From Sabellastarte sp. h YS-2021 (lineage: Eukaryota > Annelida > Polychaeta > Sabellida > Sabellidae): DNA of 64,000 nucleotides. Below are positions 5,167 through 35,629 of this stretch, one piece after another (positions within the stretch are counted from its first letter, which is position 1; each line of letters starts with the position of its first letter). Under the pieces are notes generated by a model. It searched no databases and was not told the DNA's origin. It saw only the letters and a list, made by a program, of their open reading frames with translations. Position numbers and translations under genes: made by a program. The stretch lies in the NCBI GenBank assembly GCA_964017235.1, contig OZ024940.1, positions 29,134,573 to 29,198,572 on the forward strand, given 5' to 3'.

Positions 5167-5177
5167 TATCTTTATAT

Positions 5178-6121: not shown

Positions 6122-6317
6122 CATGCGCAATCCAAATCGAAATCTTAATAAATTGGGAAGAATTTCGTTTGTGATACATACTTGACAGAGTAAGTTGTGT
6201 CGGAGTGTGTGTCAAGTATAATGTGGATTTCAAAATAAATGAAAAAGTTTTCAGAATCATATATTGTTGAAAGTTCAACAGAAATGTAAAGTTCATCAGA
6301 CTCTTTCATCTGTTAGG
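6122..6317 (+). promoter_or_regulatory. Promoter/first-exon-like block, unit 1 (M1)
   Basis: CATGCGCA at 6122-6129, then 195 bases to TTAGG followed by GTAGGT (donor at 6318). It is the unit-1 counterpart of the block at 35428-35629 just upstream of the NLR CARD exon, sharing the GGGTAGGCTTTAT approach, TCTTAATAAA-TGGGAA, TTGTTGAAAG and TTTCATCTGTT stretches. No CARD exon follows it here. It could be an alternative promoter or a relic of a lost NLR gene. Confidence 0.35.
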
Positions 6318-7152
6318 GTAGGTATTCTTTTTTTCAAATTTTGAAAACTTGAAAACTATCATAGTAATCTTTGATATTTTCGTGTCAATGGTGTCTTCCT
6401 GCAACCTGTATGTTTTGTTGGGCTGTAAATTACAGCCTAATCTTCTGAATTTTTGCTTGCATTAATATTTCAATAATTCAACATCTTTGTTTTGCTGTAA
6501 ATGTAACTGAAAACCAATGAAATACTACTTGACGCAATGATTTTTATGTGATTACCATGTACCAGTAATGGATGCTTTTGTTTAAATATAAACATTGAAC
6601 TGATGGTGTTGTCCAATGATTCCATGTACTTTGAATGTTATATAAAACTATATGAAGTTTCATTGTCATATTCAATGCTCAAAACTTAACTTGTTGGCTT
6701 CAAAATATGTATAAAATAAAATATGATATTTCTGTTCTATATATTTGGAGTATATACCAATTTTTTTCATTAAATACCTTTCAAAATGATCAGGTCTGGG
6801 TCTGGATCCAAACAAGCTGGTATGTGCTTTGTCCTGTCGGGAAGATGTAATGGAACCCAGGATTTTTGGGTGCTTTTTTGTGGTATTTGCTTTTTGCTGA
6901 GTTGGTTACTACTGGCTTCATTGTTTCAGTTCAGGAAATACCATAAATTTAAGTTCAGATGATTTATTGTCTATGAGATAATTGTAGCTTGAAATTTTAA
7001 AGAAGAGAATGAAAAAAGGGATGTTTAGAAGTGCCAGTATCGCTAGAGCTCTTGCTTAATAATCTAACTTTTCTGGTTTAGCCTTTGATACTTGCGTTGT
7101 TTTTGTCTCTGCATACACACCACTGCAACCCTTATAAAACCATATACTATGT
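6318..7152. other. Stretch without recognised genes (and its unit-2 copy 21025-21859)
   Basis: AT-rich, no coding frame of note and no repeat recognised. The same holds for 5346-6121, 7390-8889, 10260-11240, 12512-13097, 14316-14636 and 3925-4731 in unit 1, and for their copies in units 2 and 3. Confidence 0.5.
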
Positions 7153-7385
7153 AGGGGGCCACTATGGCAGAGTGGTAACACTCTTGTCTCCCACCTCTGA
7201 GGCCGTTTTTCGGTTCACGTCTCTACCTCAAGTGGGAAAGCTGGTAGTTGCTTGCCGTTTGTTGGCAGTTTACAGTACAGAACCTTGACCAACTGTATGT
7301 ACTGGTTTCCTCGCCCCACAAAGCTACCCATTGTGATATGACTACTATCTACTGACCACTTTAGGTGTTAACAACACCCGGTATA
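7153..7385 (+). mobile_element. tRNA-derived SINE with A and B boxes, unit 1
   Basis: A-box-like TGGCAGAGTGG at 7165-7175 and B-box-like GGTTCACGTC at 7212-7221, spaced as in a pol III tRNA-type promoter. They are followed by the family body (GGGAAAGCTGGTAGTTGC ... ACTGGTTTCCTCG ... GTGATATGAC). The head does not fold into a proper tRNA, so this is a SINE and not a tRNA gene. Confidence 0.75.
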
Positions 7386-8889
7386 AGTATCAAATATTCA
7401 AGAGTATCACATTATGCCTTCAACTCAGAAGTGAAAAAACACTGACGTACTACCATTTGAAAAGTTGGAGGAAAAAAGTTTTTGCAGAAATATGGATAAT
7501 ACAGCCGGACCTTGGATGCAATCTTTTTTCCGCTTTTAGAAGAGTCAAAAATACTGTAGTGTTCTTGGGAGCCACATGATTCTAAACTGACTAAATAACC
7601 ACAAAACATTTATTTAGTGTCTGGATGTGTTTGGTCAAGCATGCATGTGTTCCTCAGTGGGGAGAAATCCACTGAAAATTAGTTGATACCTTTGGTTTAA
7701 TTAAATGTCTTCCAACATGACATTCAAACAGTAGATGGTCTATAATAGAATACTTTACAAGTTCTTTGTCCCAAGGTGAGATCATTGGAATTGTGGGACT
7801 TGGATTAGCCCATCTGGTTATGTTGGTGACTTTGAGTAGGAGAGATTATAATTTGGAAGTAGCACATGCCAGAAATAAAGATGATAAACTGGCATCAAAA
7901 TCCTGAATGTGATAATAATTTGGCCTGTAGTTAGTTAATAAATTATCAAGTGGTGTTTGCAATACTGTTTCCTGAAATAAAACAAATAATGATTTCCTAA
8001 AAAATGGACTAAGGTTATCGTCCCTAAAGCTATAAAAGCATGTTCATCAGTATAATTGTAGTGAGTAGCTACTACAGAGAACAAAGGGAGAAAGTAATTG
8101 GTACTCACAGTTTATCTCAGTGAAGGAGGGCTACTGGTCTGGCTAGTTATAGCACTGGCTTTTTGTGTAAGACTGTGCAGCTACTTTATTTCTGCCTAGA
8201 TCATGGCAGAGGGAAAATGAGGTGGAATCATGGGAACTGAATACTATCTGAATGCTAAGGCCCTCACTGAATGAAAATATTACTTTGGCAACACCCTTAC
8301 AAAAACATATTGTTTAACCTTTTACACACTCTATACTGAGCAGACTGAGATGTAATAAGATACATAGCAATAAGCTAAACATAGCAATACTCATTAGATT
8401 AAACTGGCCATACCATAGCTTGGCCCCATTAGATGTTAATGATTTGTAACAAGTGGAGAGGATGACATTAAGTTTGAAACTTAAAGTGAAGTTATTTTTG
8501 AAGAATTTTTACTTTAACAACATAAATGTTGGGTCAAGCTAAGGTTATGTATAACTTTACTTATAATAATAATAATTTATATTTTCTGGTTGTGAGAAGA
8601 AAGATCTAATAAGTAGTCTCATTGCAGTGTTGTTCACAAAAGGGGCAGATTAAAAGTGAAGTTTATTTATAAATATGTATAAAGGTAAATGAAAGGGTAA
8701 AAATGGTCAGCAATTCAAACCAAGATAGTCAAATTTACAAAAAAGAATTAGATAATCATTAAAAATAGTCTTAGTTTCTCAAACTGCTGGGATACTATCT
8801 GGAAAGAGTTATCAAATTCGTTTGCAGCACAAAGGCTTGGATTTACAGGCCCACGGTCAATGATGCAATACAGAGATTCTAGACATATG

Positions 8890-9086
8890 CATGCGCAGTT
8901 TCTACACTCTCAGCATTTAGCAGTGTCTAGACAGTGTGAAAGTAGTCCCGTGCCTAAAACAAAGGAATCTGCTGAGTTGCTGAAGTTTGGATTTCAGCAA
9001 CTTTCAAAAATAAACAAAATGTTTTTAGAGTGATACTTCTTGAGAGTATGGGATAGTTCATTATACTGAGTACTACAACTGTTGAG
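8890..9086 (+). promoter_or_regulatory. Promoter/first-exon-like block, unit 1 (M2)
   Basis: CATGCGCA at 8890-8897, 196 bases before CTGTTGAG followed by GTAGGT (donor at 9087). The last 60 bases align closely with the end of the 35428-35629 block. The next plausible acceptor with a start codon downstream is the mini-exon at 14245. Confidence 0.35.
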
Positions 9087-9349
9087 GTAGGTATTTTAAA
9101 TCTTTAAAAACTTGAGGCTAAAAGATTACAGATTCCCAGTCTCCTTGCTTCAAATTATCACCGGTACAACTAATGACCACCAGTAAATAAAATATTTATT
9201 TTTCAGTGACGACCACATATTTTGAAACACTTTTGTTTTGCATTCGTTCAATTTAAGCTTGAGATGGTTCTACTTTATTTAAGACATATTGAGGTCACTG
9301 TGTGCCAAGTTATATACATCTTGATTCTTCCTGGTGATAATTGGTACCC

Positions 9350-9917
9350 CCCAGTAAACATTACAAACGTTTATAAACGTTTATAAACCTAACTATCAAC
9401 GGTTTAGATTAGGTTTAAAATGATGGGTCTCTAAACATTCGCGCATAAACGTTTATAAACATTTATACATAAACGTTTATACATAAAACGTTTATAAACG
9501 TTTATACACGTGTTTAAAATCTGGAGAAATATTTCTGTAAGTATATCTTGCTGTATCATTGTTGTTTGAATCCATCAATACATTCTAAGTAGATATATAG
9601 AAGTATATAATTTGATGATATTATATACTTTTATATCTCTACTTAGAATTTAATGATGGCTTCAAACAACAGTGATACAGCAAGATATAGTAACAGAAAT
9701 ATTTCTCCAGTTTCTCTCAAAATGGCTGTGCTGATGTCATCATCCCAAATGAAAATGAGGTTAAGATATTTTTAACCCTTTATAAACCAAACTAATGATG
9801 CTGAAACGTTTATAAACCCATAATATTGAATAATTGTTAATATTTAGGTTTATATTTGGTTTAAAAAACGTTTCTAGGTTAACTAAACGTTTATAAACGT
9901 CTGCTATGTTTACTGGG
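9350..9917. mobile_element. 568-bp inverted-repeat (MITE/foldback-like) element, unit 1
   Basis: Ends in exact 12-bp inverted repeats, CCCAGTAAACAT (9350-9361) and ATGTTTACTGGG (9906-9917). The arms are full of AACGTTTATAAACGTTTATA-type short repeats. The centre (about 9521-9712) is a long hairpin with arms of about 90 bases beginning CTGGAGAAATATTTCTGT. No transposase and no clear target-site duplication are seen. Confidence 0.8.
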
Positions 9918-10123
9918 CCTGCGATAATGCAATTAACAGCAAGGCAGTACTAGCAGCAATGGCGACATATGTTCAAAGCCTTATGGTGTGTATTCATTCC
10001 ATTTAGCAGTTAACCATATTAATTACATTTAGAATATGTTTTATTACAGTTATGTCTCTTTTAAAGTCCAAAGCCAGGAGCTGGAATGCAAAGAGCATTC
10101 TTATCACCTATCTTAACATTTAA

Positions 10124-10153
10124 TTTTTTTTTTTTGGGGGGGGGGGGGGGGGG
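10124..10153 (+). repeat. T12-G18 homopolymer tract, unit 1
   Basis: Twelve T directly followed by eighteen G. Just after it lies CGCACGCCCCCCTTTC ... GATCTGCCTCTG, a pair of motifs met again at 11269-11305, so it likely lies at the end of a DNA-transposon relic. Confidence 0.9.
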
Positions 10154-11397
10154 CGTGGGGGCGCACGCCCCCCTTTCAGAGTTTGAAAGCTTTGACTTGT
10201 GGCTTTTTATCCCTGTCCACACCCCCATTAATCCCCTCCCCCCTAGATCTGCCTCTGTTGGGGAAATATACCTGTTTAAAGTGACACTTGTTTTATCTGT
10301 GTCACAGTCAAACTGTCCCAATAGCAAAGGGGATTAGGCTCTTTTGTGTCTGTACTAAGTTAGGTCTCATCCTCAAACAAACTGGGGATTACATCTTTTA
10401 TGGATAACTGTTTTAATAAACCTTTTTTGTTAACAAGTGTATGTTTAAACATGAGGTAATGAGATATACAATTTACAAAACTGAATTCACTCACTCCAAT
10501 TAGTAAATTATGACTGCACTTCTGTGTTTCAATTACAATTTGCTACAATAGCTATAAGATTGTACTGGAAAAAGTTAAATTAAATTGATTTATGTGTTGT
10601 TAAAATGAAAATGATGAAAGAATCAGTTATTTATAATGAAAACGTTTAAAACAAGAAACATTATGGGATACAAATTTAGATTAAAGTATGTTTCTCTCCA
10701 AGTGTGTTTTATAGTTATACAATTGTTCATTACGGAAATCCCCTTTGAAGTTTATTACATGTTATTATGTTCATGACAGTAAACTGCTGTATGTGTCAGA
10801 CCATTGAATATAGAAAAAATCCTACTGGAAAAAAAAACTTGATAAAAAACTAGTGTATCAACATATAATCCTAGTAGAAAAAAACCCTTGGAGTGTTGGA
10901 AAAATACCCCAAAAATATGTTACATGCTGTATCCTACTTGGCAGTGCTTGTGTAAATAAGTAATGTGCCATTTTGTTAGAGGGCTTTTATACTGAGGTAT
11001 TTTCCACTGCAGGTTTTCACAAAGGCTTTTTTCTGATAGAGGCATTTTCAGTTTACTTGACCATCAGTACGATATATTAAGTGTTTTGATAAGATTGGCA
11101 TTTTGCCCTTCCTGTTAAATAAAATTGCCAACATTTTGTCCTCCCTGCAATTTTGACTGGTGTTTTGTCCTTCAGCATTTTGTCCGCTGGGGTTTTTGTC
11201 TGTGCACCGCATGATTTGTCTCGCTACAAAATGTCCAAGTATGAAATATCGATACCCATGGCAACCCACGCCCCCCCTTTCGGAAAATCCTGTATCTGCC
11301 TCTGCACAAGGATACCACAAGAACCCCTCTGATATCCCAAAGAGATTGTACACCTATCTTATCATTTAATTTATTTATTGTAGCAATAAAGGACAGG

Positions 11398-11520
11398 GTT
11401 TGAGTACTGTATCGGCGAATAAATCACAAACTTCCAAGTGGAATAATGGACGAAGCTTGATAGGTCTAAGTTCACTATGGCCCGATGTTTGTGATTTATT
11501 TGACGATACAGTACTCAAAC
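11398..11520. repeat. 123-bp inverted repeat with 34-bp arms, unit 1
   Basis: Left arm 11398-11431 and right arm 11487-11520 are near-perfect inverse copies (ends GTTTGAGTACTGTATCG and CGATACAGTACTCAAAC), with a 55-base spacer. Weaker pairing continues outward (TAGCAATAAA / TTTATCGCTA). It may be a MITE or a transcribed hairpin. Confidence 0.85.
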
Positions 11521-11762
11521 TTTATCGCTATTATAAAGACCGGTATGATTTTAACAGAAAAACATCTATTTATTCAGTCAAGAAATGTAGTTGTTTTGGA
11601 ACTATATCTTTGCTGAATTACAGCCATTTGGACTTCTTTTACAATATTTCATCTCTTGTGTTATAATGTATGCTAGCAACGATGCGCAGTGACAAGTTTT
11701 CGTTCACTGCACATTTCCGGTCTTTATAATTGGGGTTCAACATTGCTTTCAACACATTGTAT

Positions 11763-11890
11763 ACGTCATATCACAACGGGTAGTTTTATGGGCTGGGGAA
11801 ACCAGTACATACAGTTGAGTTTCTGTTATGTAAACTGCTGACCAACAGGACGCAACTACCAGCTTTCTCACTAGAGGTTGGGGGATTCTT
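11763..11890 (-). mobile_element. SINE body fragment, unit 1
   Basis: Minus-strand match to the body of the SINE at 7153 (AAAGCTGGTAGTTGCG, GCAGTTTACAT, AACTGTATGTACTGGTTTCC, GTGATATGAC). The tRNA head is missing. Confidence 0.65.
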
Positions 11891-12509
11891 GAAGCCTCTA
11901 AAATGCCCACAGTGACCAGATTTATGGACTTTTTGTCACTCTTAAGCCTATACATGAAATCTCATCTGGGAATATATGATTATATTCTGTTTACATGTGA
12001 GAAAAAGTAAGGCTTTAAATAGATGTTTAACCTCTGTATAAGGGCCATAAATACCCACCCAAGTGACCTTTGAAAAAAATTTTCCGGAATTGGTAAATCT
12101 GACAATACTCTAGCTGTAGTAGATATAACTTCTACATGTAATCTTTATCTGTAAAAAAATTAAGTCCGTCTTTAATCTTAAGGCCACCTGAAGCTAGACT
12201 TGCCACAAATCTCAACTTCTGCATGCTTTTAAGCACTAAATAAGAAATCACAGGTGGATCAGAAATCATGCATGTGTACATAACCACAATTTCTCCTTAC
12301 AATCCACAGATGGCAGCACTAGTTTTAATTAGTCGTTTTTATCTCTGATCTCTCCTTTCATTCAGCCTGACAATTTTCCCCTTCAAAATCATAATGTACT
12401 GATACAGAAATGTGGAATGAAAGGATGTTGCACAAGGCCTAAGTGAATGCCTGTGGCATGAGAGATGGCCTGTCTGGGTATACGTTGGCATCGACTTGGT
12501 GCAATCTAC
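11886..12509 (+). mobile_element. Helentron-like H2 3' part, unit 1
   Basis: Shares the CTCTAAAATGCCCACA, GCTTTAAATAGATGTTTAA and GGGCCATAAA-ACCCACCC segments with the H2 element at 37872. It ends GGCCTGTCTGGGTATACGTTGG ... GCAATCTAC, the H2 3' end with CTAG decayed to CTAC. Confidence 0.6.
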
Positions 12510-13097
12510 TTTTATATGGCAGCAGATTTTTTAAGTTGTTTGTTGTTGTCTCCTGTTGTTAGTCTGGTGTCCTAATAATGGAGAAATATTGAAAACAATA
12601 TTTTTATATAAATTTTAGTGAACATAACATGAAAGGTGATATAACATTAATATACTGTTCTACATTTATTGCAAGTGTGACACATTTTAAAAATATACAG
12701 TTGATTCTGGTGTGATAGATTTAAAAATGGCGAGTTAGCTACATTTTTTTTAATTATCTACCTTTTTTACTGGCTGGTTCTCATATGTAAAAGGTTGAAT
12801 CTCTAACATAGGTGATATGTTTAACAGTTATACATGTCCTCTATAACTCTACAGACTTTTTGTATTGTCTTGTACTCAGCGTGATATCTCAATATACTAC
12901 AGTACTGAAAGCACTATTTAACCAATCTGACTGTACAGGTACAGCCCCAACTCACAAGTAACTGATATTCCACTAACTGGAAGATAGAGGTTAAAGGATG
13001 ACCATTTATCAACCTCCTTGAGATTCTTTAGCCTGGCAAGGGGATAGGACCCAATGACAGAGGACAGCCATTTTAAGTGGTCATCCATGTATCTGCC

Positions 13098-13170
13098 TGT
13101 ACCTGGGTTGGAACCTAGTCCTCTGAGTTCCTAGACAAGTATGTTACCCGCTAGGCCACAGTGGCACATA
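13098..13170 (-). mobile_element. tRNA-like SINE head, unit 1
   Basis: On the minus strand an A box TGGCCTAGCGGG (13147-13158) and a B box GGTTCCAACCC (13104-13114) sit at tRNA-like spacing. The arms do not make a complete cloverleaf. It belongs to a different SINE subtype from that at 7153. Confidence 0.6.
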
Positions 13171-13184
13171 GTTGTTCTGACATA

Positions 13185-14010
13185 TGACCTTGAAGCTCTG
13201 CATTCAAGGTCATCCACAGAGTGCTAAAGTAGCCTATGTATCAGACATATATTCCTTATTATTGGTCCTAGAGGTTTGCAATGTGAAACCAACTTATAGG
13301 AAATCATGGACTGGGAATCTTGTGATGTGATTGGAAATGACCTTGGGCCTTTCCTTCAAGGTCAAATGAGGGTAGCCAAACCTAAAAGTCCTTATAACTC
13401 GCTTATAATTGGTTCTAGAGGCTTGCAATTTCACACCAGCTCATAGAAAATCATTTTATGAGGACCATAAGCAGAAACATGGGCGACCATTTTTTGACAT
13501 TTTTCACATATTTTTCCTGTACCTTAAAATGGTATGTCTGAAAAGTATCAAACTGTATTAGATACAACTTGTATATGTAATAATTGTTTGTGAAAAATTT
13601 GAAGTCTGTAGCTTTAATTTTAAGATCACCTTTAGGTCTTTTAAACGCCTATAGAGACCCAATTTATTAACTTTTTACATCCTTTAAAGCTTTATTGCTG
13701 TAATACTATGCAAATGATAGATCTGAAATCTCTGGGAATGTCTTAATATGTTATTTTTACATGTGCCAAAATCAAGGTTTTAATTTGAAATTTGAACAAT
13801 CTACACAAATTTTAAAAAAATGACCAAAAATGAAACATTGATTTGGCCAAAAGAAAAACAATAAAAATGAATGAAAAATAATTGATAATTATTGTGAATC
13901 ACTCACAATACACATTTTTGCTACAAAAATCCAGTGATTGTCTGTAGCATCAGATAGCCTGCCTAGGGATATATTGATGCCAAGTTGGCACATTCTAATT
14001 TTCATATGAC
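13185..14010 (+). mobile_element. 147-type repeats plus H2 3' end, unit 1
   Basis: About two diverged 147-type monomers (13185-13440) run into H2 interior sequence. The terminal hairpin is TGCCAAGTTGGCA at 13978-13990. A TGACCTTGAA/TTCAAGGTCA inverted pair lies at 13185-13212. Confidence 0.55.
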
Positions 14011-14244
14011 TCATAAGCTATGTGTATTTATTTACCAAAAAATATAAAGTGCAAGCTACATATGCAAGGCACATACCTCATCTATGCACTTGGATGCCTA
14101 CACTTAGTGTCTGTCAGTGTGAATTGGGTGATGCTAGATGGGACACCAGTCACCTTTAACAATAGGGACTGAGTTTGCTTGCAGTGACCTTCACCTGGTA
14201 TTATTATCATGAGATAACAGACACAGTTCTGTTGATTTTTACAG

Positions 14245-14314
14245 GTTGTAAACTCCAGTCATGAATACCGAGGAAGATGCAGCAGTACTCTGTTATGAAT
14301 CAGAAAGCCTTGAG
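14245..14314 (+). CDS. Mini coding exon with start codon, unit 1
   Basis: A 70-base exon-like segment between a strong acceptor (TGATTTTTACAG ending at 14244) and a consensus donor (GAG/GTAAGTATG, donor at 14315). An ATG at 14261 opens 18 codons (MNTEEDAAVLCYESESLE) and ends in phase 0. The NLR exon at 36107 can be read in phase 0 as well: AGA GAG GAG TAC AAT precede its ATG with no stop. Splicing to it would therefore add an acidic N-terminal extension. No similarity to a named domain is seen. It may instead be the first coding exon of a lost paralogous gene. Confidence 0.4.
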
Positions 14315-14636
14315 GTAAGTATGGAGTAATTGCTTGATTAAGTGATTATTGTATCGACTGGTTAAATCAAGTGGATATTTTGATTTAGCATTCGCTATAC
14401 TGCCACGACATGTAGATATTTTTAACATTAACGCTCTCAGAGGAAAGCCACACCAGCTAGGTTAACCAAATTTGCAGCATATCTTCATTGGGAGGTAAGC
14501 TTCTCTGAGACTGAAATAAGCCTCATTCTGTAAAAACAAGATGACCCTATGAGCATTTCTTTGAAAGTTATCTACCTTTTTCTACTGGATGGTTCTAGAA
14601 GGTTGAATCTCTTCATAGGTGATATGTATAACAGAT

Positions 14637-15047
14637 ACCTTGAAGCTCCTTATTCAAGGTCATTCACGTAATGCCAAAGTGCCCTATGTAGTGAACTTTA
14701 AAAGTGCATATATCTCCCTTATTACTCGTCCTGGAGGTTTTGCATGCAAATGAACCTGTAGGAAATCATAGGCTGGGAATCTCCTGGTGTGGTTTGATTT
14801 GACCCCCTCTTTCAAGGTCAAACAAGGACAACCAATCTTAAACATGCGTATAACTTACTTATTATTGGCCCTAGACATTTTCAATGTGAAACAAACTAAT
14901 AGGAAATCATGGGCTGGGAATCTTCTGATGTGGTCAGACTTGGCCTTAGGCCCCTTGTTCAAGGTCAAACGATGGGTTACTGACTATGGTGAGTTGTCTT
15001 TCTGGTGGATACAAATTTGAATGCGTTCTCTGATGCGCTAGGTCTAG
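14637..15047 (+). mobile_element. H1 3' part with 147-type repeats across the unit 1/unit 2 boundary
   Basis: Two to three diverged 147-type monomers, then GGTGGATACAA at 15004-15014, a weakened GATGCG hairpin and GTCTAG ending at 15047 before TT. The same tail opens the window (168-178) and recurs before unit 3. Confidence 0.6.
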
Positions 15048-15284
15048 TTGGTGATTGCATATATTTCAACTCTCTTAAATTAGAGCTGGTCTCATCAGAG
15101 ACTGAGGAGTAAAGTTATCCTAAGGTGCAAATTAGCCATGAAATATTATTTAAGAGAAGAGGGTTGGTAAGATATAAATACTCAATTCTATATCAAGATG
15201 GTGCATGACCCCACACCACTGAAAAATTAATTCACATGAAAAATTAGGGAGCAATTTCTGAGTTCTTGAATCCTGAAACTGCAA

Positions 15285-16340
15285 ACATGAACAATTCTGC
15301 CTCCTGCCAAAAATCCACAAAAACAGAATCCTTGGTAGACCAATTTCCAGTTTAGTTGATAGCTCAACAGCAAATATTAGTAAGTTTGCAGATGAACAAA
15401 TAAAACAATATAACCTAAATACAAAGTCACATATTAGAGACACACAAGATTTCACCAGTAAAATCACCCAATTAAAGCCAATCCCAGAGGGAGCCATTCT
15501 AGCCACCCTAGGTGTTACCTCTCTATACACCAACATACTAAATTAGGACAGTATTGCAGCAGTAGCAGACCACATGCACAAAGATCCCACAAAAGGGCCC
15601 ATTGCCACTTACATACTTGACTGACTTAAATTGGTGTTACACAACATTTATTATTAGTTCAACAATTAATTCTATCTTCAAATAGGAGAACTGCAATGGG
15701 AACCATACTAGCACCCAGCTATGCCAATCTGTTTATGGATAGATTTGAAAGCAAATCTCTAGACAACCATAAACTAAAACCCCCGATATGGAGACAATTC
15801 ATTGATGATATCCTTTAGATATGGACTCATGGAAATGATTCCCTAATAGATTTTGTGAAATATTTTAAAAAGCTCCATCTAACCATCAAGTTCATTCCAG
15901 AGACTAGCAAAGAAAGCATTAATTTCTTAGATACCACAGTAAAATTTAAAGCTTAAAATATAAACATAATTAGCACCTTGTACAATAAGCCCACATCTGA
16001 CACACATCTGTTTTTGCACCACACCAGTGCTTATCAAGAAACTGTTACTAAGAATATGGACAATATCTCAAATTAAGAAGAATTTGCACCCTATACACAG
16101 CTTTTAAATTTAATGCTGCTAAACTTGTACAATATCATGTAAAAAGAGGATAATACTCCTGAACCAACTCACAATACCAAAGAGTATTGAAATTGAGCCA
16201 GACAGATTTACTGGAAGGATTAATATAAGGGCTGCTCAAAGACTCCCCCAGTAACGGTCAAAAGGTTCATAATGTGGAGCTTTAAAGAAAAATCTTATGT
16301 CAGAAACCTCACATTGGGTACAGGAGACTAGCAAATCTGA
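15285..16340 (+). pseudogene. Penelope-like element reverse transcriptase relic, unit 2
   Basis: Copy of the relic at 430-1480. The FIDD motif is at 15798-15809 and is in frame with the upstream NLFMDRF segment. Stops, including one just after FIDDIL, keep it inactive. Confidence 0.8.
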
Positions 16341-16615
16341 AAAATATTTGAACCAGTATTAAAATATACTTGTGATGTCATGTTATTGTTAAAAGTGTAT
16401 TTTTCATCATGGTATTTGAATTTACAGAATTAACAGAATCTGGCAAAACGTAGTAATTAAAATACAATGTCTTTCAATGCAACATAATAGTGGTCATTCA
16501 GCACATCCTTAATTGGTTTAAGTGTTATGGTGATTAATATTAAGCAATAATATTGAAGTTAACCTCATTACATTTGTCTACTTTCTTCTTGTGGCACAAA
16601 ATAATTATATCCCCA

Positions 16616-16965
16616 GACGAAAGTCGGGCATATCTTGGTTTCACATCTGTCACACCACCACCGCCTCCACTGCTGTAAATTTTGACTTGTGTGTGTGGTA
16701 ACTCCAAAATGCTATTTCCTCCTTATATATGCCATATGTTTTTTTCCCAAATGTAATAACTACATGTCCATATAAAATGCAGAAAGAATTATTCATTGTA
16801 TCTTAAATCGGGGATTCTTTGGATCATGCATGGTCATCGCACGTGTACATTTCCGTATACCAGTTCGCGTCCACAGATTTCTTGTGTTCAACCTACAAGC
16901 CATATTTCTTTTGAGATTCCTATAAAACTTTGCACGTGGCTTGCTATGGCAGAGATCTGGCCACC
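16616..16965 (+). mobile_element. Helentron-like family H2, 5' end fragment, unit 2
   Basis: Unit-2 copy of the fragment at 1752-2100. Confidence 0.55.
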
Positions 16966-16987
16966 CTTTTATTAGCCCAGGAATAAA

Positions 16988-17802: not shown

Positions 17803-17935
17803 TGAAGGCGATGTTAGGTTTATGTCAAAACATGACAAATGGACAGACGCAGGATTGGATGCACATATGGGGTTTTACAACCTCTTGACCATGGCCTTCC
17901 TTTTTATTGACTGTCTTTACATTCTGAAGCCATAG

Positions 17936-19873: not shown

Positions 19874-19884
19874 TATCTTTATAT

Positions 19885-24056: not shown

Positions 24057-24624
24057 CCCAGTAAACATTACAAACGTTTATAAACGTTTATAAACCTAAC
24101 TATCAACGGTTTAGATTAGGTTTAAAATGATGGGTCTCTAAACGTTCGCGCATAAACGTTTATAAACATTTATACATAAACGTTTATACATAAAACGTTT
24201 ATAAACGTTTATACACGTGTTTAAAATCTGGAGAAATATTTCTGTAAGTATATCTTGCTGTATCATTGTTGTTTGAATCCATCAATACATTCTAAGTAGA
24301 TATATAGAAGTATATAATTTGATGATATTATATACTTTTATATCTCTACTTAGAATTTAATGATGGCTTCAAACAACAGTGATACAGCAAGATATAGTAA
24401 CAGAAATATTTCTCCAGTTTCTCTCAAAATGGCTGTGCTGATGTCATCATCCCAAATGAAAATGAGGTTAAGATATTTTTAACCCTTTATAAACCAAACT
24501 AATGATGCTGAAACGTTTATAAACCCATAATATTGAATAATTGTTAATATTTAGGTTTATATTTGGTTTAAAAAACGTTTCTAGGTTAACTAAACGTTTA
24601 TAAACGTCTGCTATGTTTACTGGG
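24057..24624. mobile_element. 568-bp inverted-repeat element, unit 2
   Basis: Copy of the element at 9350-9917, with the same 12-bp ends. Confidence 0.8.
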
Positions 24625-24830
24625 CCTGCGATAATGCAATTAACAGCAAGGCAGTACTAGCAGCAATGGCGACATATGTTCAAAGCCTTATGGTGTGTAT
24701 TCATTCCATTTAGCAGTTAACCATATTAATTACATTTAGAATATGTTTTATTACAGTTATGTCTCTTTTAAAGTCCAAAGCCAGGAGCTGGAATGCAAAG
24801 AGCATTCTTATCACCTATCTTAACATTTAA

Positions 24831-24858
24831 TTTTTTTTTTTTGGGGGGGGGGGGGGGG
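24831..24858 (+). repeat. T12-G16 homopolymer tract, unit 2
   Basis: Copy of the tract at 10124 with two fewer G. Confidence 0.9.
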
Positions 24859-26102
24859 CGTGGGGGCGCACGCCCCCCTTTCAGAGTTTGAAAGCTTTGA
24901 CTTGTGGCTTTTTATCCCTGTCCACACCCCCATTAATCCCCTCCCCCCTAGATCTGCCTCTGTTGGGGAAATATACCTGTTTAAAGTGACACTTGTTTTA
25001 TCTGTGTCACAGTCAAACTGTCCCAATAGCAAAGGGGATTAGGCTCTTTTGTGTCTGTACTAAGTTAGGTCTCATCCTCAAACAAACTGGGGATTACATC
25101 TTTTATGGATAACTGTTTTAATAAACCTTTTTTGTTAACAAGTGTATGTTTAAACATGAGGTAATGAGATATACAATTTACAAAACTGAATTCACTCACT
25201 CCAATTAGTAAATTATGACTGCACTTCTGTGTTTCAATTACAATTTGCTACAATAGCTATAAGATTGTACTGGAAAAAGTTAAATTAAATTGATTTATGT
25301 GTTGTTAAAATGAAAATGATGAAAGAATCAGTTATTTATAATGAAAACGTTTAAAACAAGAAACATTATGGGATACAAATTTAGATTAAAGTATGTTTCT
25401 CTCCAAGTGTGTTTTATAGTTATACAATTGTTCATTACGGAAATCCCCTTTGAAGTTTATTACATGTTATTATGTTCATGACAGTAAACTGCTGTATGTG
25501 TCAGACCATTGAATATAGAAAAAATCCTACTGGAAAAAAAAACTTGATAAAAAACTAGTGTATCAACATATAATCCTAGTAGAAAAAAACCCTTGGAGTG
25601 TTGGAAAAATACCCCAAAAATATGTTACATGCTGTATCCTACTTGGCAGTGCTTGTGTAAATAAGTAATGTGCCATTTTGTTAGAGGGCTTTTATACTGA
25701 GGTATTTTCCACTGCAGGTTTTCACAAAGGCTTTTTTCTGATAGAGGCATTTTCAGTTTACTTGACCATCAGTACGATATATTAAGTGTTTTGATAAGAT
25801 TGGCATTTTGCCCTTCCTGTTAAATAAAATTGCCAACATTTTGTCCTCCCTGCAATTTTGACTGGTGTTTTGTCCTTCAGCATTTTGTCCGCTGGGGTTT
25901 TTGTCTGTGCACCGCATGATTTGTCTCGCTACAAAATGTCCAAGTATGAAATATCGATACCCATGGCAACCCACGCCCCCCCTTTCGGAAAATCCTGTAT
26001 CTGCCTCTGCACAAGGATACCACAAGAACCCCTCTGATATCCCAAAGAGATTGTACACCTATCTTATCATTTAATTTATTTATTGTAGCAATAAAGGACA
26101 GG

Positions 26103-26225
26103 GTTTGAGTACTGTATCGGCGAATAAATCACAAACTTCCAAGTGGAATAATGGACGAAGCTTGATAGGTCTAAGTTCACTATGGCCCGATGTTTGTGAT
26201 TTATTTGACGATACAGTACTCAAAC
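26103..26225. repeat. 123-bp inverted repeat, unit 2
   Basis: Copy of the inverted repeat at 11398-11520. Confidence 0.85.
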
Positions 26226-26467
26226 TTTATCGCTATTATAAAGACCGGTATGATTTTAACAGAAAAACATCTATTTATTCAGTCAAGAAATGTAGTTGTT
26301 TTGGAACTATATCTTTGCTGAATTACAGCCATTTGGACTTCTTTTACAATATTTCATCTCTTGTGTTATAATGTATGCTAGCAACGATGCGCAGTGACAA
26401 GTTTTCGTTCACTGCACATTTCCGGTCTTTATAATTGGGGTTCAACATTGCTTTCAACACATTGTAT

Positions 26468-26595
26468 ACGTCATATCACAACGGGTAGTTTTATGGGCTG
26501 GGGAAACCAGTACATACAGTTGAGTTTCTGTTATGTAAACTGCTGACCAACAGGACGCAACTACCAGCTTTCTCACTAGAGGTTGGGGGATTCTT
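26468..26595 (-). mobile_element. SINE body fragment, unit 2
   Basis: Copy of the fragment at 11763-11890. Confidence 0.65.
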
Positions 26596-27214
26596 GAAGC
26601 CTCTAAAATGCCCACAGTGACCAGATTTATGGACTTTTTGTCACTCTTAAGCCTATACATGAAATCTCATCTGGGAATATATGATTATATTCTGTTTACA
26701 TGTGAGAAAAAGTAAGGCTTTAAATAGATGTTTAACCTCTGTATAAGGGCCATAAATACCCACCCAAGTGACCTTTGAAAAAAATTTTCCGGAATTGGTA
26801 AATCTGACAATACTCTAGCTGTAGTAGATATAACTTCTACATGTAATCTTTATCTGTAAAAAAATTAAGTCCGTCTTTAATCTTAAGGCCACCTGAAGCT
26901 AGACTTGCCACAAATCTCAACTTCTGCATGCTTTTAAGCACTAAATAAGAAATCACAGGTGGATCAGAAATCATGCATGTGTACATAACCACAATTTCTC
27001 CTTACAATCCACAGATGGCAGCACTAGTTTTAATTAGTCGTTTTTATCTCTGATCTCTCCTTTCATTCAGCCTGACAATTTTCCCCTTCAAAATCATAAT
27101 GTACTGATACAGAAATGTGGAATGAAAGGATGTTGCACAAGGCCTAAGTGAATGCCTGTGGCATGAGAGATGGCCTGTCTGGGTATACGTTGGCATCGAC
27201 TTGGTGCAATCTAC
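26591..27214 (+). mobile_element. Helentron-like H2 3' part, unit 2
   Basis: Copy of the fragment at 11886-12509. Confidence 0.6.
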
Positions 27215-27802
27215 TTTTATATGGCAGCAGATTTTTTAAGTTGTTTGTTGTTGTCTCCTGTTGTTAGTCTGGTGTCCTAATAATGGAGAAATATTGAAAA
27301 CAATATTTTTATATAAATTTTAGTGAACATAACATGAAAGGTGATATAACATTAATATACTGTTCTACATTTATTGCAAGTGTGACACATTTTAAAAATA
27401 TACAGTTGATTCTGGTGTGATAGATTTAAAAATGGCGAGTTAGCTACATTTTTTTTAATTATCTACCTTTTTTACTGGCTGGTTCTCATATGTAAAAGTT
27501 TGAATCTCTAACATAGGTGATATGTTTAACAGTTATACATGTCCTCTATAACTCTACAGACTTTTTGTATTGTCTTGTACTCAGCGTGATATCTCAATAT
27601 ACTACAGTACTGAAAGCACTATTTAACCAATCTGACTGTACAGGTACAGCCCCAACTCACAAGTAACTGATATTCCACTAACTGGAAGATAGAGGTTAAA
27701 GGATGACCATTTATCAACCTCCTTGAGATTCTTTAGCCTGGCAAGGGGATAGGACCCAATGACAGAGGACAGCCATTTTAAGTGGTCATCCATGTATCTG
27801 CC

Positions 27803-27875
27803 TGTACCTGGGTTGGAACCTAGTCCTCTGAGTTCCTAGACAAGTATGTTACCCGCTAGGCCACAGTGGCACATA
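27803..27875 (-). mobile_element. tRNA-like SINE head, unit 2
   Basis: Copy of the head at 13098-13170. Confidence 0.6.
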
Positions 27876-27889
27876 GTTGTTCTGACATA

Positions 27890-28715
27890 TGACCTTGAAG
27901 CTCTGCATTCAAGGTCATCCACAGAGTGCTAAAGTAGCCTATGTATCAGACATATATTCCTTATTATTGGTCCTAGAGGTTTGCAATGTGAAACCAACTT
28001 ATAGGAAATCATGGACTGGGAATCTTGTGATGTGATTGGAAATGACCTTGGGCCTTTCCTTCAAGGTCAAATGAGGGTAGCCAAACCTAAAAGTCCTTAT
28101 AACTCGCTTATAATTGGTTCTAGAGGCTTGCAATTTCACACCAGCTCATAGAAAATCATTTTATGAGGACCATAAGCAGAAACATGGGCGACCATTTTTT
28201 GACATTTTTCACATATTTTTCCTGTACCTTAAAATGGTATGTCTGAAAAGTATCAAACTGTATTAGATACAACTTGTATATGTAATAATTGTTTGTGAAA
28301 AATTTGAAGTCTGTAGCTTTAATTTTAAGATCACCTTTAGGTCTTTTAAACGCCTATAGAGACCCAATTTATTAACTTTTTACATCCTTTAAAGCTTTAT
28401 TGCTGTAATACTATGCAAATGATAGATCTGAAATCTCTGGGAATGTCTTAATATGTTATTTTTACATGTGCCAAAATCAAGGTTTTAATTTGAAATTTGA
28501 ACAATCTACACAAATTTAAAAAAAATGACCAAAAATGAAACATTGATTTGGCCAAAAGAAAAACAATAAAAATGAATGAAAAATAATTGATAATTATTGT
28601 GAATCACTCACAATACACATTTTTGCTACAAAAATCCAGTGATTGTCTGTAGCATCAGATAGCCTGCCTAGGGATATATTGATGCCAAGTTGGCACATTC
28701 TAATTTTCATATGAC
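27890..28715 (+). mobile_element. 147-type repeats plus H2 3' end, unit 2
   Basis: Copy of the composite at 13185-14010, with the inverted half-site pair at 27890-27917. Confidence 0.55.
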
Positions 28716-28949
28716 TCATAAGCTATGTGTATTTATTTACCAAAAAATATAAAGTGCAAGCTACATATGCAAGGCACATACCTCATCTATGCACTTGGAT
28801 GCCTACACTTAGTGTCTGTCAGTGTGAATTGGGTGATGCTAGATGGGACACCAGTCACCTTTAACAATAGGGACTGAGTTTGCTTGCAGTGACCTTCACC
28901 TGGTATTATTATCATGAGATAACAGACACAGTTCTGTTGATTTTTACAG

Positions 28950-29019
28950 GTTGTAAACTCCAGTCATGAATACCGAGGAAGATGCAGCAGTACTCTGTTA
29001 TGAATCAGAAAGCCTTGAG
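28950..29019 (+). CDS. Mini coding exon with start codon, unit 2
   Basis: Identical copy of the exon at 14245-14314. The acceptor ends at 28949, the ATG is at 28966, and the GTAAGT donor is at 29020. The same 18 residues end in phase 0. No counterpart was found in unit 3, which is cut or diverged before this point. Confidence 0.4.
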
Positions 29020-29341
29020 GTAAGTATGGAGTAATTGCTTGATTAAGTGATTATTGTATCGACTGGTTAAATCAAGTGGATATTTTGATTTAGCATTCGC
29101 TATACTGCCACGACATGTAGATATTTTTAACATTAACGCTCTCAGAGGAAAGCCACACCAGCTAGGTTAACCAAATTTGCAGCATATCTTCATTGGGAGG
29201 TAAGCTTCTCTGAGACTGAAATAAGCCTCATTCTGTAAAAACAAGATGACCCTATGAGCATTTCTTTGAAAGTTATCTACCTTTTTCTACTGGATGGTTC
29301 TAGAAGGTTGAATCTCTTCATAGGTGATATGTATAACAGAT

Positions 29342-29758
29342 ACCTTGAAGCTCCTTATTCAAGGTCATTCACGTAATGCCAAAGTGCCCTATGTAGTGAA
29401 CTTTAAAAGTGCATATATCTCCCTTATTACTCGTCCTGGAGGTTTTGCATGCAAATGAACCTGTAGGAAATCATAGGCTGGGAATCTCCTGGTGTGGTTT
29501 GATTTGACCTTGAACCCCTCTTTCAAGGTCAAACAAGGACAACCAATCTTAAACATGCGTATAACTTACTTATTATTGGCCCTAGACATTTTCAATGTGA
29601 AACAAACTAATAGGAAATCATGGGCTGGGAATCTTCTGATGTGGTCAGACTTGGCCTTAGGCCCCTTGTTCAAGGTCAAACGATGGGTTACTGACTATGG
29701 TGAGTTGTCTTTCTGGTGGATACAAATTTGAATGCGTTCTCTGATGCGCTAGGTCTAG
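29342..29758 (+). mobile_element. H1 3' part across the unit 2/unit 3 boundary
   Basis: Copy of the fragment at 14637-15047. The CTAG end is at 29755-29758. Six extra bases near 29509 restore TTGACCTTGAACC relative to the unit 1/2 boundary copy. Confidence 0.6.
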
Positions 29759-29995
29759 TTGGTGATTGCATATATTTCAACTCTCTTAAATTAGAGCTGG
29801 TCTCATCAGAGACTGAGGAGTAAAGTTATCCTAAGGTGCAAATTAGCCATGAAATATTATTTAAGAGAAGAGGGTTGGTAAGATATAAATACTCAATTCT
29901 ATATCAAGATGGTGCATGACCCCACACCACTGAAAAATTAATTCACATGAAAAATTAGGGAGCAATTTCTGAGTTCTTGAATCCTGAAACTGCAA

Positions 29996-31050
29996 ACATG
30001 AACAATTCTGCCTCCTGCCAAAAATCCACAAAAACAGAATCCTTGGTAGACCAATTTCCAGTTTAGTTGATAGCTCAACAGCAAATATTAGTAAGTTTGC
30101 AGATGAACAAATAAAACAATATAACCTAAATACAAAGTCACATATTAGAGACACACAAGATTTCACCAGTAAAATCACCCAATTAAAGCCAATCCCAGAG
30201 GGAGCCATTCTAGCCACCCTAGGTGTTACCTCTCTATACACCAACATACTAAATTAGGACAGTATTGCAGCAGTAGCAGACCACATGCACAAAGATCCCA
30301 CAAAAGGGCCCATTGCCACTTACATACTTGACTGACTTAAATTGGTGTTACACAACATTTATTATTAGTTCAACAATTAATTCTATCTTCAAATAGGAGA
30401 ACTGCAATGGGAACCATACTAGCACCCAGCTATGCCAATCTGTTTATGGATAGATTTGAAAGCAAATCTCTAGACAACCATAAACTAAAACCCCCGATAT
30501 GGAGACAATTCATTGATGATATCCTTTAGATATGGACTCATGGAAATGATTCCCTAATAGATTTTGTGAAATATTTTAAAAAGCTCCATCTAACCATCAA
30601 GTTCATTCCAGAGACTAGCAAAGAAAGCATTAATTTCTTAGATACCACAGTAAAATTTAAAGCTTAAAATATAAACATAATTAGCACCTTGTACAATAAG
30701 CCCACATCTGACACACATCTGTTTTTGCACCACACCAGTGCTTATCAAGAAACTGTTACTAAGAATATGGACAATATCTCAAATTAAGAAGAATTTGCAC
30801 CCTATACACAGCTTTTAAATTTAATGCTGCTAAACTTGTACAATATCATGTAAAAAGAGGATAATACTCCTGAACCAACTCACAATACCAAAGAGTATTG
30901 AAATTGAGCCAGACAGATTTACTGGAAGGATTAATATAAGGGCTGCTCAAAGACTCCCCCAGTAACGGTCAAAAGGTTCATAATGTGGAGCTTTAAAGAA
31001 AAATCTTATGTCAGAAACCTCACATTGGGTACAGGAGACTAGCAAATCTG
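29996..31050 (+). pseudogene. Penelope-like element reverse transcriptase relic, unit 3
   Basis: Copy of the unit-2 relic. FIDD is at 30509-30520 and the same inactivating stops are present. Confidence 0.8.
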
Positions 31051-31316
31051 AAAAATATTTGAACCAGTATTAAAATATACTTGTGATGTCATGTTATTGT
31101 TAAAAGTGTATTTTTCATCATGGTATTTGAATTTACAGAATTAACAGAATCTGGCAAAACGTAGTAATTAAAATACAATGTCTTTCAATGCAACATAATA
31201 GTGGTCATTCAGCACATCCTTAATTGGTTTAAGTGTTATGGTGATTAATATTAAGCAATAATATTGAAGTTAACCTCATTACATTTGTCTACTTTCTTCT
31301 TGTGGCACAAAATAAT

Positions 31317-31675
31317 TATATCCCCAGACGAAAGTCGGGCATATCTTGGTTTCACATCTGTCACACCACCACCGCCTCCACTGCTGTAAATTTTGACTTG
31401 TGTGTGTGGTAACTCCAAAATGCTATTTCCTCCTTATATATGCCATATGTTTTTTTCCCAAATGTAATAACTACATGTCCATATAAAATGCAGAAAGAAT
31501 TATTCATTGTATCTTAAATCGGGGATTCTTTGGATCATGCATGGTCATCGCACGTGTACATTTCCGTATACCAGTTCGCGTCCACAGATTTCTTGTGTTC
31601 AACCTACAAGCCATATTTCTTTTGAGATTCCTATAAAACTTTGCACGTGGCTTGCTATGGCAGAGATCTGGCCAC
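31317..31675 (+). mobile_element. Helentron-like family H2, 5' end fragment, unit 3
   Basis: Unit-3 copy of the fragment at 1752-2100. Confidence 0.55.
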
Positions 31676-31698
31676 CCTTTTATTAGCCCAGGAACAAA

Positions 31699-32512
31699 TT
31701 GTATCCACTAGAAAGAAAACTTACCAAAGTCATTCAACCATCGCTTAATCTTGAAGGACGATGAAATCTGATCACATCAAAAGATTCCTAGCCCTTGATT
31801 TCCTATAGGTTGGTTTCACATTGCAAACCTCTAGGACCAATAATAAGCAAGTTATAAGCACTTTTAAGTTTTGGTATCCTTGTTTGTCCTTGAAGGAGGG
31901 GTCCAAGGTCAAATCAGACCACATCAAAAGAATCCCACCCCATGATTTCCTATAACTTGGTTTGACATTGCAAACCTCTAGGACCAATAATAAGTGAGTT
32001 ATAAGCACTTTTACGTTTGGCTATCCTCGTTTGACCTTGAAGGAGGGGTCCAAGGTCAAATCTGACCTCACCAAAAGATTGCCAGCCCATGATTTCCTAT
32101 AGGCTGGTTTACCATACCAAACCTCTAGGATCAATAATAAGGGAGATATAAGTACTAGTCATGACTGACAAAGAAACAGCCATGGCGGCCATCTTGTTTT
32201 TCAAAATGAGGCCAAAAATATATCCAGTCAAGTTTGTGTAATGAGGAACATATCCTGATCTGTACCTATAATACCCTTTGCTCTAGAGGGCCAAGAAAAG
32301 TCCTTGCTTAAAGTCAAATAAATGTCCCTGATAGCCATCTTGTTTTTCAAAATGAGGCCAAAAATATTCCCAGGCAAGATTTTATGGTTCTTAATATATT
32401 CTGCAAATTTGAGAAGGCCAGCTATAATATTTTTTTGTTAGAAATCTCTCTACACACTGCTGCAACAGCATCGGTGTAGTGAAGCAAAATCCATAGTATC
32501 CGGTGGATACAA
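31699..32512 (-). mobile_element. Helentron-like element H1 with three 147-bp repeats, unit 3
   Basis: Counterpart of the unit-2 element at 16988-17802, with the same monomer number. Confidence 0.6.
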
Positions 32513-32645
32513 TGAAGGCGATGTTAGGTTTATGTCAAAACATGACAAATGGACAGACGCAGGATTGGATGCACATATGGGGTTTTACAACCTCTTGACC
32601 ATGGCCTTCCTTTTTATTGACTGTCTTTACATTCTGAAGCCATAG

Positions 32646-33150
32646 CATCAATAATAAGGGACAAATAGGGATGTTTTAGTGTGAAGACCCCATTTAACCT
32701 TGTACCGGGGATTTAAGGTCAAATTCAACACCTGGAAAAGATTTCCAGGCCATGACTTCCTGCAAGTTGTTTCACATTCCAAACCTCTAGGACCAATATT
32801 AGGAAAGATATAAGGCCTTTTTAATAGGATAACCCTGTTTGACATTAAACATGTGATATGGCAGCCATTTTGTTTTTGAACTAGGCCAAAATTACTATCA
32901 GGCTAGCTTTTCTAGTCATACAGCTTTTGTGCAAATTTGATGAAGCTAGCTAGATTTAGAAGATTTAGAACATGATTTTCAAACAAGTAACTATTGTGGC
33001 CATTTTGTTTTTCAAAATGAGGCCAAAATTTAGTCAGAGACAGGTTATCATAGCCAAAAACATTCCAAATTTGGTGAAGATATCTCAATAAATGAATGAG
33101 ATATTAAGGTTTATGCAAAAACATGATGAACAGACAGACACAACTACAGA
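32646..33150 (-). mobile_element. Second H1-related fragment, unit 3
   Basis: Copy of the fragment at 3229-3740. Confidence 0.45.
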
Positions 33151-33303
33151 GGGTGTTTTATAACAAGCTAGTTTCATGATAGGATAAGACTTGAAGTGAT
33201 AAAATTGAGAAGAAAAAGACTGGAAGTAATAAGACAATGACTGGAAGTGATTAGGACAAGATGAGAAGTGACTAGGACAAGCTGGTTTACAGGAGGGTGT
33301 AGG

Positions 33304-33341
33304 GTCGGTGAAATATCAAACATGTTTGATATTTTGCCGAC
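33304..33341. repeat. 38-bp palindrome, unit 3
   Basis: Unchanged copy of the palindrome at 3887-3924. Confidence 0.9.
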
Positions 33342-34148
33342 TCAACAAGACAAGCCATGAAACTACAACTGACCCTAACCAACTCTGTAAACATTGCTCT
33401 CAATCCTCGAAAAATTCTTAGTTACCAACAAGATGGTCCCAGTGGAATACCCCTATAACTCACAGACAGACAACTATAACCTCCTAATGCAAGCCAGTAT
33501 ATATAAATGTCCTTATAAAATATGAAGTTAAATATCATTAAACAGTCCCGTGTAATTCTTAATTACCCATTTCATTTGACAAACTTTCTGTCATCCAAAC
33601 AAAATCTAACTATCTCCACATGGTTGAATAATGGAGACTCAACTCTAAATTTAGTTGCAAATTTCTTATTTTGACACATTTTGTTGTTGCTAAAGCAATC
33701 TGTTCTTAGATTCTGTTTCAGACACTCTCAGTGTAGATTGGTCTTAGGTAAACATTTCACTCACTAGTATGTTAAGTGCATGTGTTTGAACTTGGCCTCC
33801 TCTCAGTGTGATTAACACATTGCCTTGATATATAAGGGAGGAGGTTAAATAATTTATCACAATGACATAAATTTTAAAAGTAAACTAAGCAGGTTACTTA
33901 AAATTATCTGAAATAATGAAATACTTTTTGTTTTTGAAAATACATATGAGCTGAGAAAACAAGATTATTTGAAAAGTTTTTATCTGTGATTGGCACTTCA
34001 AGTAAGCATTATAGTAGCCTTGCTGAAGACTCAAATTTCTTTTACAGTTAGGGAAAGTTTTCAGTTCAGATAATGGAGTTTCAGTTTCTATAATACACTC
34101 ATACGCCTACTTACTATTAAGCTGTCTAGTTAGGTTCTATCTCTTAAC

Positions 34149-34583
34149 ATGTACGAGTGTTTTATGAAAACCAAATATCTGTGTGCAAAGAATCACAATT
34201 TTTCTGGCAATCTGCATAAGATAAAATATCATTCCCTCCCTCTCGCCAAGATAAGGACACTACCCCTGATAAACCAAAAATCTGCACCAGATTGGGAAAA
34301 CACATTTTGTCCCAAGCTTGTGAAAGTTATTGAATTTACAAGCCACCACACAGGTAAAACAAACAAGTGCATTAATTTACCAAATCCCATGTTAATCACT
34401 TGTGAAATCAGTCACATAATTTATCTGATGGAATGTATGAAATGTGGATATCAGTACATTGGGGAAACAGGTAACCCACAAAATGGGTGCTACAAAAATA
34501 CTGTATATAAAATATTCCCTGTCTCAGAATCGGTTGTCGAGTCAGCACAATCTAGTTTATTTAGTATTTCACATAGTGCCTAA
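34149..34583 (+). pseudogene. Penelope-like GIY-YIG endonuclease relic, unit 3
   Basis: Same frame as the other two relics, but residue 99 is cysteine (CMKCGYQYIGETG), the ancestral-looking state for this family. Other changes include H72N, Y98-region codon differences and F128S. This copy is the older branch. Confidence 0.7.
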
Positions 34584-34593
34584 TACCTTTATA

Positions 34594-34762
34594 TCGATCA
34601 TATGTCAATGGGTAGTAAGAAATGAAGGGGAAACCTGTGCATACAGTTGGTCAAGGATCCATACTGTAAACTGCTTACCAAAGGCAAACAACTGCCAGCT
34701 TTCAAAATCTGACCTTAGGTTCGAGGGGAGTGTGTTGCCACTATTTCACCATGACCCCAAGA
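34594..34762 (-). mobile_element. tRNA-derived SINE piece, unit 3
   Basis: Diverged copy of the SINE piece at 5178-5345. Confidence 0.6.
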
Positions 34763-35427
34763 GGCAAATTTGTGTACAAAAGGAGAAAATGAGGTTTGAT
34801 ATGTGAAGCTAATTTATAGAAAATCATGGCCTGGGAACCATCTTATGTGGTCAGATTTTACCTTGGGCCCCTCCTTCAATATAAAATGTGGACAGCCAAG
34901 GGTAAAAGTGCTTATAACTTGCTTGACAAGTTAAAACATGTAGCAGTTCAAATATATAGAATAGCTGCAGACAGCTTTGTGTATTTTGGAAAAAAAGCAA
35001 TCCCATATAAAAAAGAAAACACAAACCTGCTCTACTGCAGAAACCTACAGACAGTAAATCTCTGCTTATCTAAGTAGGGTCACATGACTGAAAACTGCCT
35101 TCCAGTTTGGCTGTTCCATTATGCAAACATGAAATATTTTTGCCACAATTCACACTGTATTAGAGGCCTTTTCTAGCTATCCTCAGTTTAGCAAAGCTAA
35201 ATTAATGTGTGGAAACATTATGAGACATTATTACAATGCAATCAGACACTTGTGTCTATAGCTATAAAAATGCCGGTTACAAGGCAAGGCTATTAATTAC
35301 ATGGTCTTTTTTCTCAGCTTTTTAGAGGAGTTGGGATGGAAAATTCCTAGTCTTGCAATAACACTCATAAAACCTTCTGCACAAACTTTCTGGGGAAATA
35401 ATGTGAATTCTGGGTAGGCTTTATGCC

Positions 35428-35629
35428 CATGCGCACACCAAAGGAGACTATCTTAATAAACTGGGAACTTGTTACCTATGGTATATACTCGATACAGCAT
35501 GTTGTGTGTAAAGTATTGTGCGGATTCAAGCATGCTTTCAAAATACATGAAAAGGGTATCAGAGTGATATTTGTTGAAAGCTTTGTAGTATGGGGTAGTT
35601 TACCCTACTCAGCATTTCATCTGTTCAAG
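35428..35629 (+). promoter_or_regulatory. Candidate promoter / noncoding first exon of the NLR gene (block M3)
   Basis: Starts with CATGCGCA at 35428-35435, an NRF1-like half-site, and ends 201 bases later in CTGTTCAAG followed by GTAGGT (donor at 35630). The CARD exon acceptor lies 477 bases downstream, so this fits a noncoding first exon with a short 5' UTR intron. The 3' part (AGAGTGATA..., TATGGG-TAGTT, CTGTT-AG/GTAGGT) is shared with the blocks ending at 9086 and 23793. The whole block is also the diverged counterpart of those ending at 6317 and 21024. The transcription start is not determined. Confidence 0.45.

Follow-up and report, generated by a model that had tools for sequence, protein, structure and literature searches.

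At the human NAIP locus, an NLR (NOD-like receptor) gene is described as multicopy, with some copies partly deleted and with several transcription starts, some of which lie in transposable elements (PMC2685007). In Chelicerata, the sDscam genes are described as carrying tandem 5′ cassettes that encode immunoglobulin (Ig) domains and that lie behind predicted, partly tested promoters (PMC4835542). The NLR loci of zebrafish are reported to differ in copy number within the species (PMC11192531), and genes that combine CARD, NACHT, and leucine-rich repeats (LRRs) are reported from sponges (PMC12909245). Here, we analyze a 64,000-nucleotide stretch of the genome of the annelid Sabellastarte sp. h YS-2021 (contig OZ024940.1, positions 29,134,573 to 29,198,572; the window, hereafter), in which five short blocks, each opening on the 8-base motif CATGCGCA and closing at a GTAGGT splice donor, precede a predicted CARD-NACHT gene. 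These blocks belong to three lineages, which we call A, B, and E, and two of the three are present twice. Our reading, of moderate confidence, is that A, B, and E would be diverged copies of an NLR-type gene's front end, and that a single recent unequal crossover would have doubled A and B.

Results

The motif CATGCGCA occurs exactly five times in the 64,000-base window, always on the forward strand (at 6122, 8890, 20829, 23597, and 35428), against a chance expectation of 0.51; five copies were reached in 0 of 100 shuffles. Each copy is followed by GTAGGT, starting at 6318, 9087, 21025, 23794, and 35630, and the distances from the start of the motif to the base before the donor are 196, 197, 196, 197, and 202 bases. 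The conserved spacing and donor described in an earlier, sequence-only reading of this DNA are borne out in all five blocks (196 to 202 bases). GTAGGT is not rare in itself, with nine forward-strand copies outside a 155-bp satellite described below, five of them being the block donors. The blocks are as follows:

6122 to 6317, forward strand: block A, from CATGCGCA to the last base before GTAGGT; exon-1-like, with homology to E over its full length
8890 to 9086, forward strand: block B, with the same motif and donor; homology to A and E limited to the last ~100 bases
20829 to 21024, forward strand: block A′, letter-identical to A; segmental duplicate
23597 to 23793, forward strand: block B′, letter-identical to B; segmental duplicate
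35428 to 35629, forward strand: block E, likely the 5′ (probably untranslated) exon of the CARD-NACHT gene

A equals A′ and B equals B′ because both pairs lie in one 14.7-kb tandem duplication, and we reject five independent conserved modules. The sequence-only reading had counted five copies of a module; five motifs with their donors are indeed present where it placed them, but they amount to three lineages, two of them doubled by recent duplication. The arrangement is that of an alternative-first-exon cluster, with tandem exon-like modules in one orientation upstream of shared exons, in three lineages and five copies, the exons being putative.

Self-comparison of the window shows 2345–20394 duplicated onto 17053–35102 at 99.16% identity. 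To describe this duplication, we aligned three units, taken from base 1, 14711, and 29421, and counted gap-free differing sites. The units and the interval in which the middle one changes its affinity, none of which has a strand, are as follows:

1 to 14710: unit 1, which starts at the window edge; BLAST similarity begins at 215, and the borders are arbitrary
14711 to 29420: unit 2, a chimera, like unit 3 up to 18780 and like unit 1 from 18863
29421 to 35635: unit 3, partial; its left part is identical or near-identical to unit 2, identity is ~73% around block E, and it ends just past the donor of E
18780 to 18863: the inferred crossover interval in unit 2, corresponding to ~4073–4156 in unit 1 and ~33490–33573 in unit 3

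Unit 2 is chimeric. Of 84 informative sites between 14825 and 18780, 83 place it with unit 3, and of 71 between 18863 and 20518, 69 place it with unit 1; windowed identities agree with a single switch. Sites after 20518 (105 like unit 1 and one, at 20524, like unit 3) were left out of the count because unit 3 is there too diverged and is partly aligned to B. Over the ~10.7 kb rightward of the switch, six substitutions and two small indels, of 2 and 6 bases, separate unit 1 from unit 2, a count that omits a single gap column at the alignment end. A middle unit with one switch between flanking paralogues is what either one recent unequal crossover or a loop in the assembly would leave, and we infer a crossover.

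Block pairs were compared by local alignment against 500 dinucleotide shuffles, and each of the three lineage pairs scored above all 500 (A–E, z 23.4; B–E, z 12.6; A–B, z 5.2). In the last ~100 bases, B–E stands at z 15.3 and A–B is weaker at z 6.8, whereas in the first 100 bases, with the motif left out, B resembles neither E (117 of 500 shuffles as good) nor A (239 of 500). The shared 3′ sequence that had been claimed is thus real for the last ~100 bases of A, B, and E, and the 5′ half is common to A and E only. A profile of the shared 3′ part finds the five blocks, the next-best match in the window having an E value of 4. Ahead of that part, the 8-mer CATGCGCA is all that the blocks have in common. 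Its occurrence at a like offset in B appears unlikely to be due to chance: by a test devised after the data had been seen, 72 of 20,000 shuffles of B hold an 8-mer common to A and E within 10 bases, and 228 of 5000 do so when any 8-mer common to A alone is admitted.

The homology between A and E takes in at least 325 bases of 5′ flank. The alignment of A′ to E spans 549 columns at 73.6% identity and reaches 35635, and the 200 bases upstream of the block give z 33.7 for A–E. Past the donor, from +7 to +100, there is no similarity between A and E (351 of 500 shuffles as good) or between B and E (254 of 500), and out to +470 the shuffles that were as good numbered 41 of 200 for A–E, 16 of 200 for B–E, and 111 of 200 for A–B. 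That two of the three pairs lose their similarity at the donor would fit copied first exons with drifted introns, though it is no proof of them. A separate feature of this flank is a stretch, 35141–35260, with 91–100% identity to the region upstream of A, followed by 54–85% in 40-base bins; gene conversion or constraint may account for the high-identity patch.

The CpG observed/expected ratio, taken over each block and the 300 bases upstream, is 0.39 for A, 0.27 for B, and 0.24 for E. The window without the satellite stands at 0.28, so none of the three has a CpG-rich promoter; the low value outside the satellite suggests germline methylation. GC content, CpG depletion, and the weakness of the match to solved vertebrate NLRs would together point to an invertebrate whose genome is methylated. 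The term promoter/first-exon module in the sequence-only reading can be kept in part: the blocks are related, share one orientation, and have a common end at a plausible donor, with E standing before the CARD exon, but the evidence for the word promoter is the 8-base motif and nothing else.

The gene that follows the blocks has two predicted exons in the window:

36107 to 36485, forward strand: CARD exon, with ATG at 36122 and donor GTAGGT at 36486
61230 to 64000, forward strand: NACHT exon, which runs off the window and is in phase with the CARD exon across an intron of 24.7 kb

Block E lies 477 bases before the CARD exon; the sequence-only reading had placed the two next to each other. This exon matches Pfam CARD_2 (E 8.7e-7; 29.3 bits against a cut-off of 28.2); it scores 16.7 against the other CARD model, PF00619, below the cut-off of 23.9, and none of its matches to solved chains is better than E 0.25. 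The frame from 61214 matches Pfam NACHT (3.2e-19; 69.8 bits against a cut-off of 26.7), and the best solved chain for the NACHT exon is NLRC4 (8.3e-8). No LRR family was matched at E values up to 0.1, the NACHT exon running off the window. The CARD exon ends one base over, the NACHT exon starts at 61230 after CTTTTTTCAG, and the joined exons are open through the window end; the two appear to form one gene, of which E is probably the 5′ exon. With A at −3 and a G following, the ATG at 36122 sits in a good start context, and a start there would leave block E untranslated. We also considered a coding first exon at E. An open frame, 35402–35641, runs through E in phase with the CARD exon and has an ATG inside CATGCGCA, from which it continues for 67 codons; 66 of 7299 background positions (~0.9%) show such openness. 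By codon score the frame is neutral (−1.1, versus +26.6 for the CARD exon), the corresponding frames of A and B meet stops after 20 and 9 codons, and on these grounds the candidate was set aside.

The duplicated unit holds no CARD or NACHT remnant that tblastn could find, the best non-self matches having E values of 6.4 and 5.3. Its content thus offers no backing for the idea that an entire NLR copy was lost recently. The unit does contain two candidate exons:

14245 to 14314 (copy at 28950–29019), forward strand: candidate downstream exon; its ATG frame starts at 14261, has 18 codons, and ends at GTAAGT
14441 to 14494 (copy at 29146–29199), forward strand: possible next exon, with 18 stop-free codons in phase, donor GTAAGC, and a codon score of 0.9

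The ATG frame at 14261/28966 has a codon score of 5.9, which in unit 2 ranks first among 29 candidate ATGs on the forward strand and exceeds each of the 25 on the reverse strand; per codon, it scores 0.33, versus 0.22 for the CARD exon. The acceptor that had been proposed at 14245/28950 is thus the one at which the unit's top-scoring short ATG exon candidate begins, as far as prediction goes. With phase 0 at the ends of both 18-codon exons and at the start of the CARD exon, splicing to 36107 would preserve the reading frame. No relatives of the two 18-codon frames were found in the window, and since the unit copies are near-identical, their comparison is uninformative on the 18-codon exon. A scan for stop-free internal exons (codon score ≥4) covered 15081–39100 and 55900–64000 and is blind to an exon with an in-frame stop before its ATG. 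Apart from the CARD exon and parts of the NACHT exon, it returned 58299–58451 (6.8), a minisatellite frame (6.1), 35701–35819 on the reverse strand (4.3), and, within the unit, 24928–25017 on the reverse strand (4.1). When ten stretches of the window were compared with Pfam, nine had no family and the tenth had one match far below the cut-off; among the stretches that came from the unit, none has a family that passes its cut-off.

The repeat content of the window includes the following arrays:

40143 to 55819, no strand: 155-bp satellite array of ~100 copies, inside the CARD-NACHT intron
2198 to 2737, 17053 to 17446, 31764 to 32156, 39179 to 40141, and 59255 to 60705, both orientations: 147-bp minisatellite arrays

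One of the 147-bp arrays directly adjoins the 155-bp satellite. At gathering scores, Rfam has no match in the window, ARAGORN finds no tRNA there, and no tail was seen by eye after the shared 3′ end of the blocks. Frames at 4717–5163 and 15277–15543, and their copies, are without Pfam family support; they resemble the end and reverse-transcriptase pieces of Penelope-like elements. Relatives of the NACHT exon and an exact 30-base piece of B were absent from viral contigs, a comparison not expected to bear on an animal gene.

Discussion

Under the reading that we favor, copies of an NLR-type front end, two of them doubled by one crossover, what was copied would be the 3′ portion of a first exon, donor included, to which A and E add 5′ flanking sequence of at least 325 bases. 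E would most likely serve the CARD-NACHT gene downstream as its 5′ exon, and A and B would be older paralogous 5′ ends, with no detectable receptor body adjoining them. Units 1 and 3, being similar stretches, would have mispaired, and unequal crossing over at 18,780–18,863 would have doubled the 14.7-kb segment with A and B and left unit 2 chimeric. Several observations weigh against this account. A and B retain a weak similarity just past the donor (+7 to +100; 4 of 500 shuffles as good), so that for this pair the similarity does not break at the donor, and the end of the homology could instead be a duplication breakpoint or the end of a repeat. Identity between A and E is uneven, ranging from 0.54 to 1.00 in 40-base bins from 35101 to 35620, which indicates that more than one event shaped the pair. 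The ATG exon candidate at 14261/28966 would suit live first exons at A and B, not leftovers, and a loop in the assembly would give the same chimera as a crossover.

The first of the other readings takes A, B, A′, B′, and E all to be active alternative first exons, with A and B splicing to 14245/28950 or to 36107 and so providing other 5′ ends or another N-terminus. We regard this as unlikely, although it is consistent with the single orientation of the blocks, their common exon-like 3′ end and donor, and the placement of CATGCGCA in B. The motif presumably resembles half of an Nrf-1 site. Nrf-1 motifs are reported to lie near gene starts in a sponge and to be enriched in frog promoters (PMC4773876). 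Against active first exons stand the duplicate nature of two of the five blocks, the lack of similarity of B to A or E upstream, and the absence of a CpG-rich promoter at A, B, or E. The strongest point in favor would be the candidate exon at 14245/28950, which could join the CARD exon in frame together with its 18-codon neighbor; it is short, however, and that neighbor scores poorly. The top rank of the 14261/28966 frame led us to give more weight to alternative first exons, and less to our favored account, than we otherwise would have. The same rank raised the weight of a further proposal, in which a tandem alternative-first-exon cluster feeds one NLR, some of its members adding an N-terminus through 14245/28950, and unequal crossing over changes the number of copies, such that the number of starts would differ between individuals; even so, we consider it improbable.

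It is also quite unlikely, in our judgment, that the blocks are copies of a dispersed repeat, for instance a short retroposed element whose copies share their 3′ end, and lie near the gene by chance. B does look 5′-truncated while keeping the common 3′ end, as retroposed copies often do, and the region is rich in repeats. Yet 64 kb hold three lineages and no further copy, and every block lies upstream of the gene in the same orientation; the lack of an Rfam match, a tRNA, or a visible tail, and the extension of A–E homology into the flank, also speak against such an element. An artifact of assembly, in which A′ and B′ come from a repeat loop walked twice, would concern the doubling alone and could hold together with another reading of A, B, and E. 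The near-identity of units 1 and 2 to the right of the switch and the chimeric unit 2 are what such a loop would give, but the substitutions and small indels do separate the copies, and the switch is confined to an 82-base interval between differences; we think this origin improbable as well.

The locus illustrates how one recent recombination can inflate the count of conserved modules in raw sequence, and it is a clear, testable case of 5′-end copy number beside an immune receptor. If the extra blocks are active, individuals could differ in the dosage, timing, or N-terminus of one NLR by way of how many first exons, and not how many genes, they carry.

The CARD and NACHT architecture in an invertebrate recalls the sponge genes, although the LRRs of sponge CARD-NACHT-LRR genes would here lie beyond the window or have escaped detection. 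In zebrafish, as described, the NLR genes themselves vary, whereas here it is the 5′ flank that is duplicated. Among the literature matches listed, represented by titles and the starts of abstracts, none describes an animal NLR with a tandem alternative-first-exon cluster, which is a weak negative; NAIP, with its several starts, is present among them. As at NAIP, whose region is described as copy-number-variable, an NLR gene lies beside partial copies and has more than one possible start. The starts and paralogue transcripts of NAIP are experimental, in contrast to the present starts, which are read from sequence alone, and the partial copies here hold only the 5′ end. Unlike the Ig-coding cassettes of sDscam, the blocks are without a coding signal and their promoters are putative; like those cassettes, they are repeated tandem 5′ modules upstream of one constant gene body.

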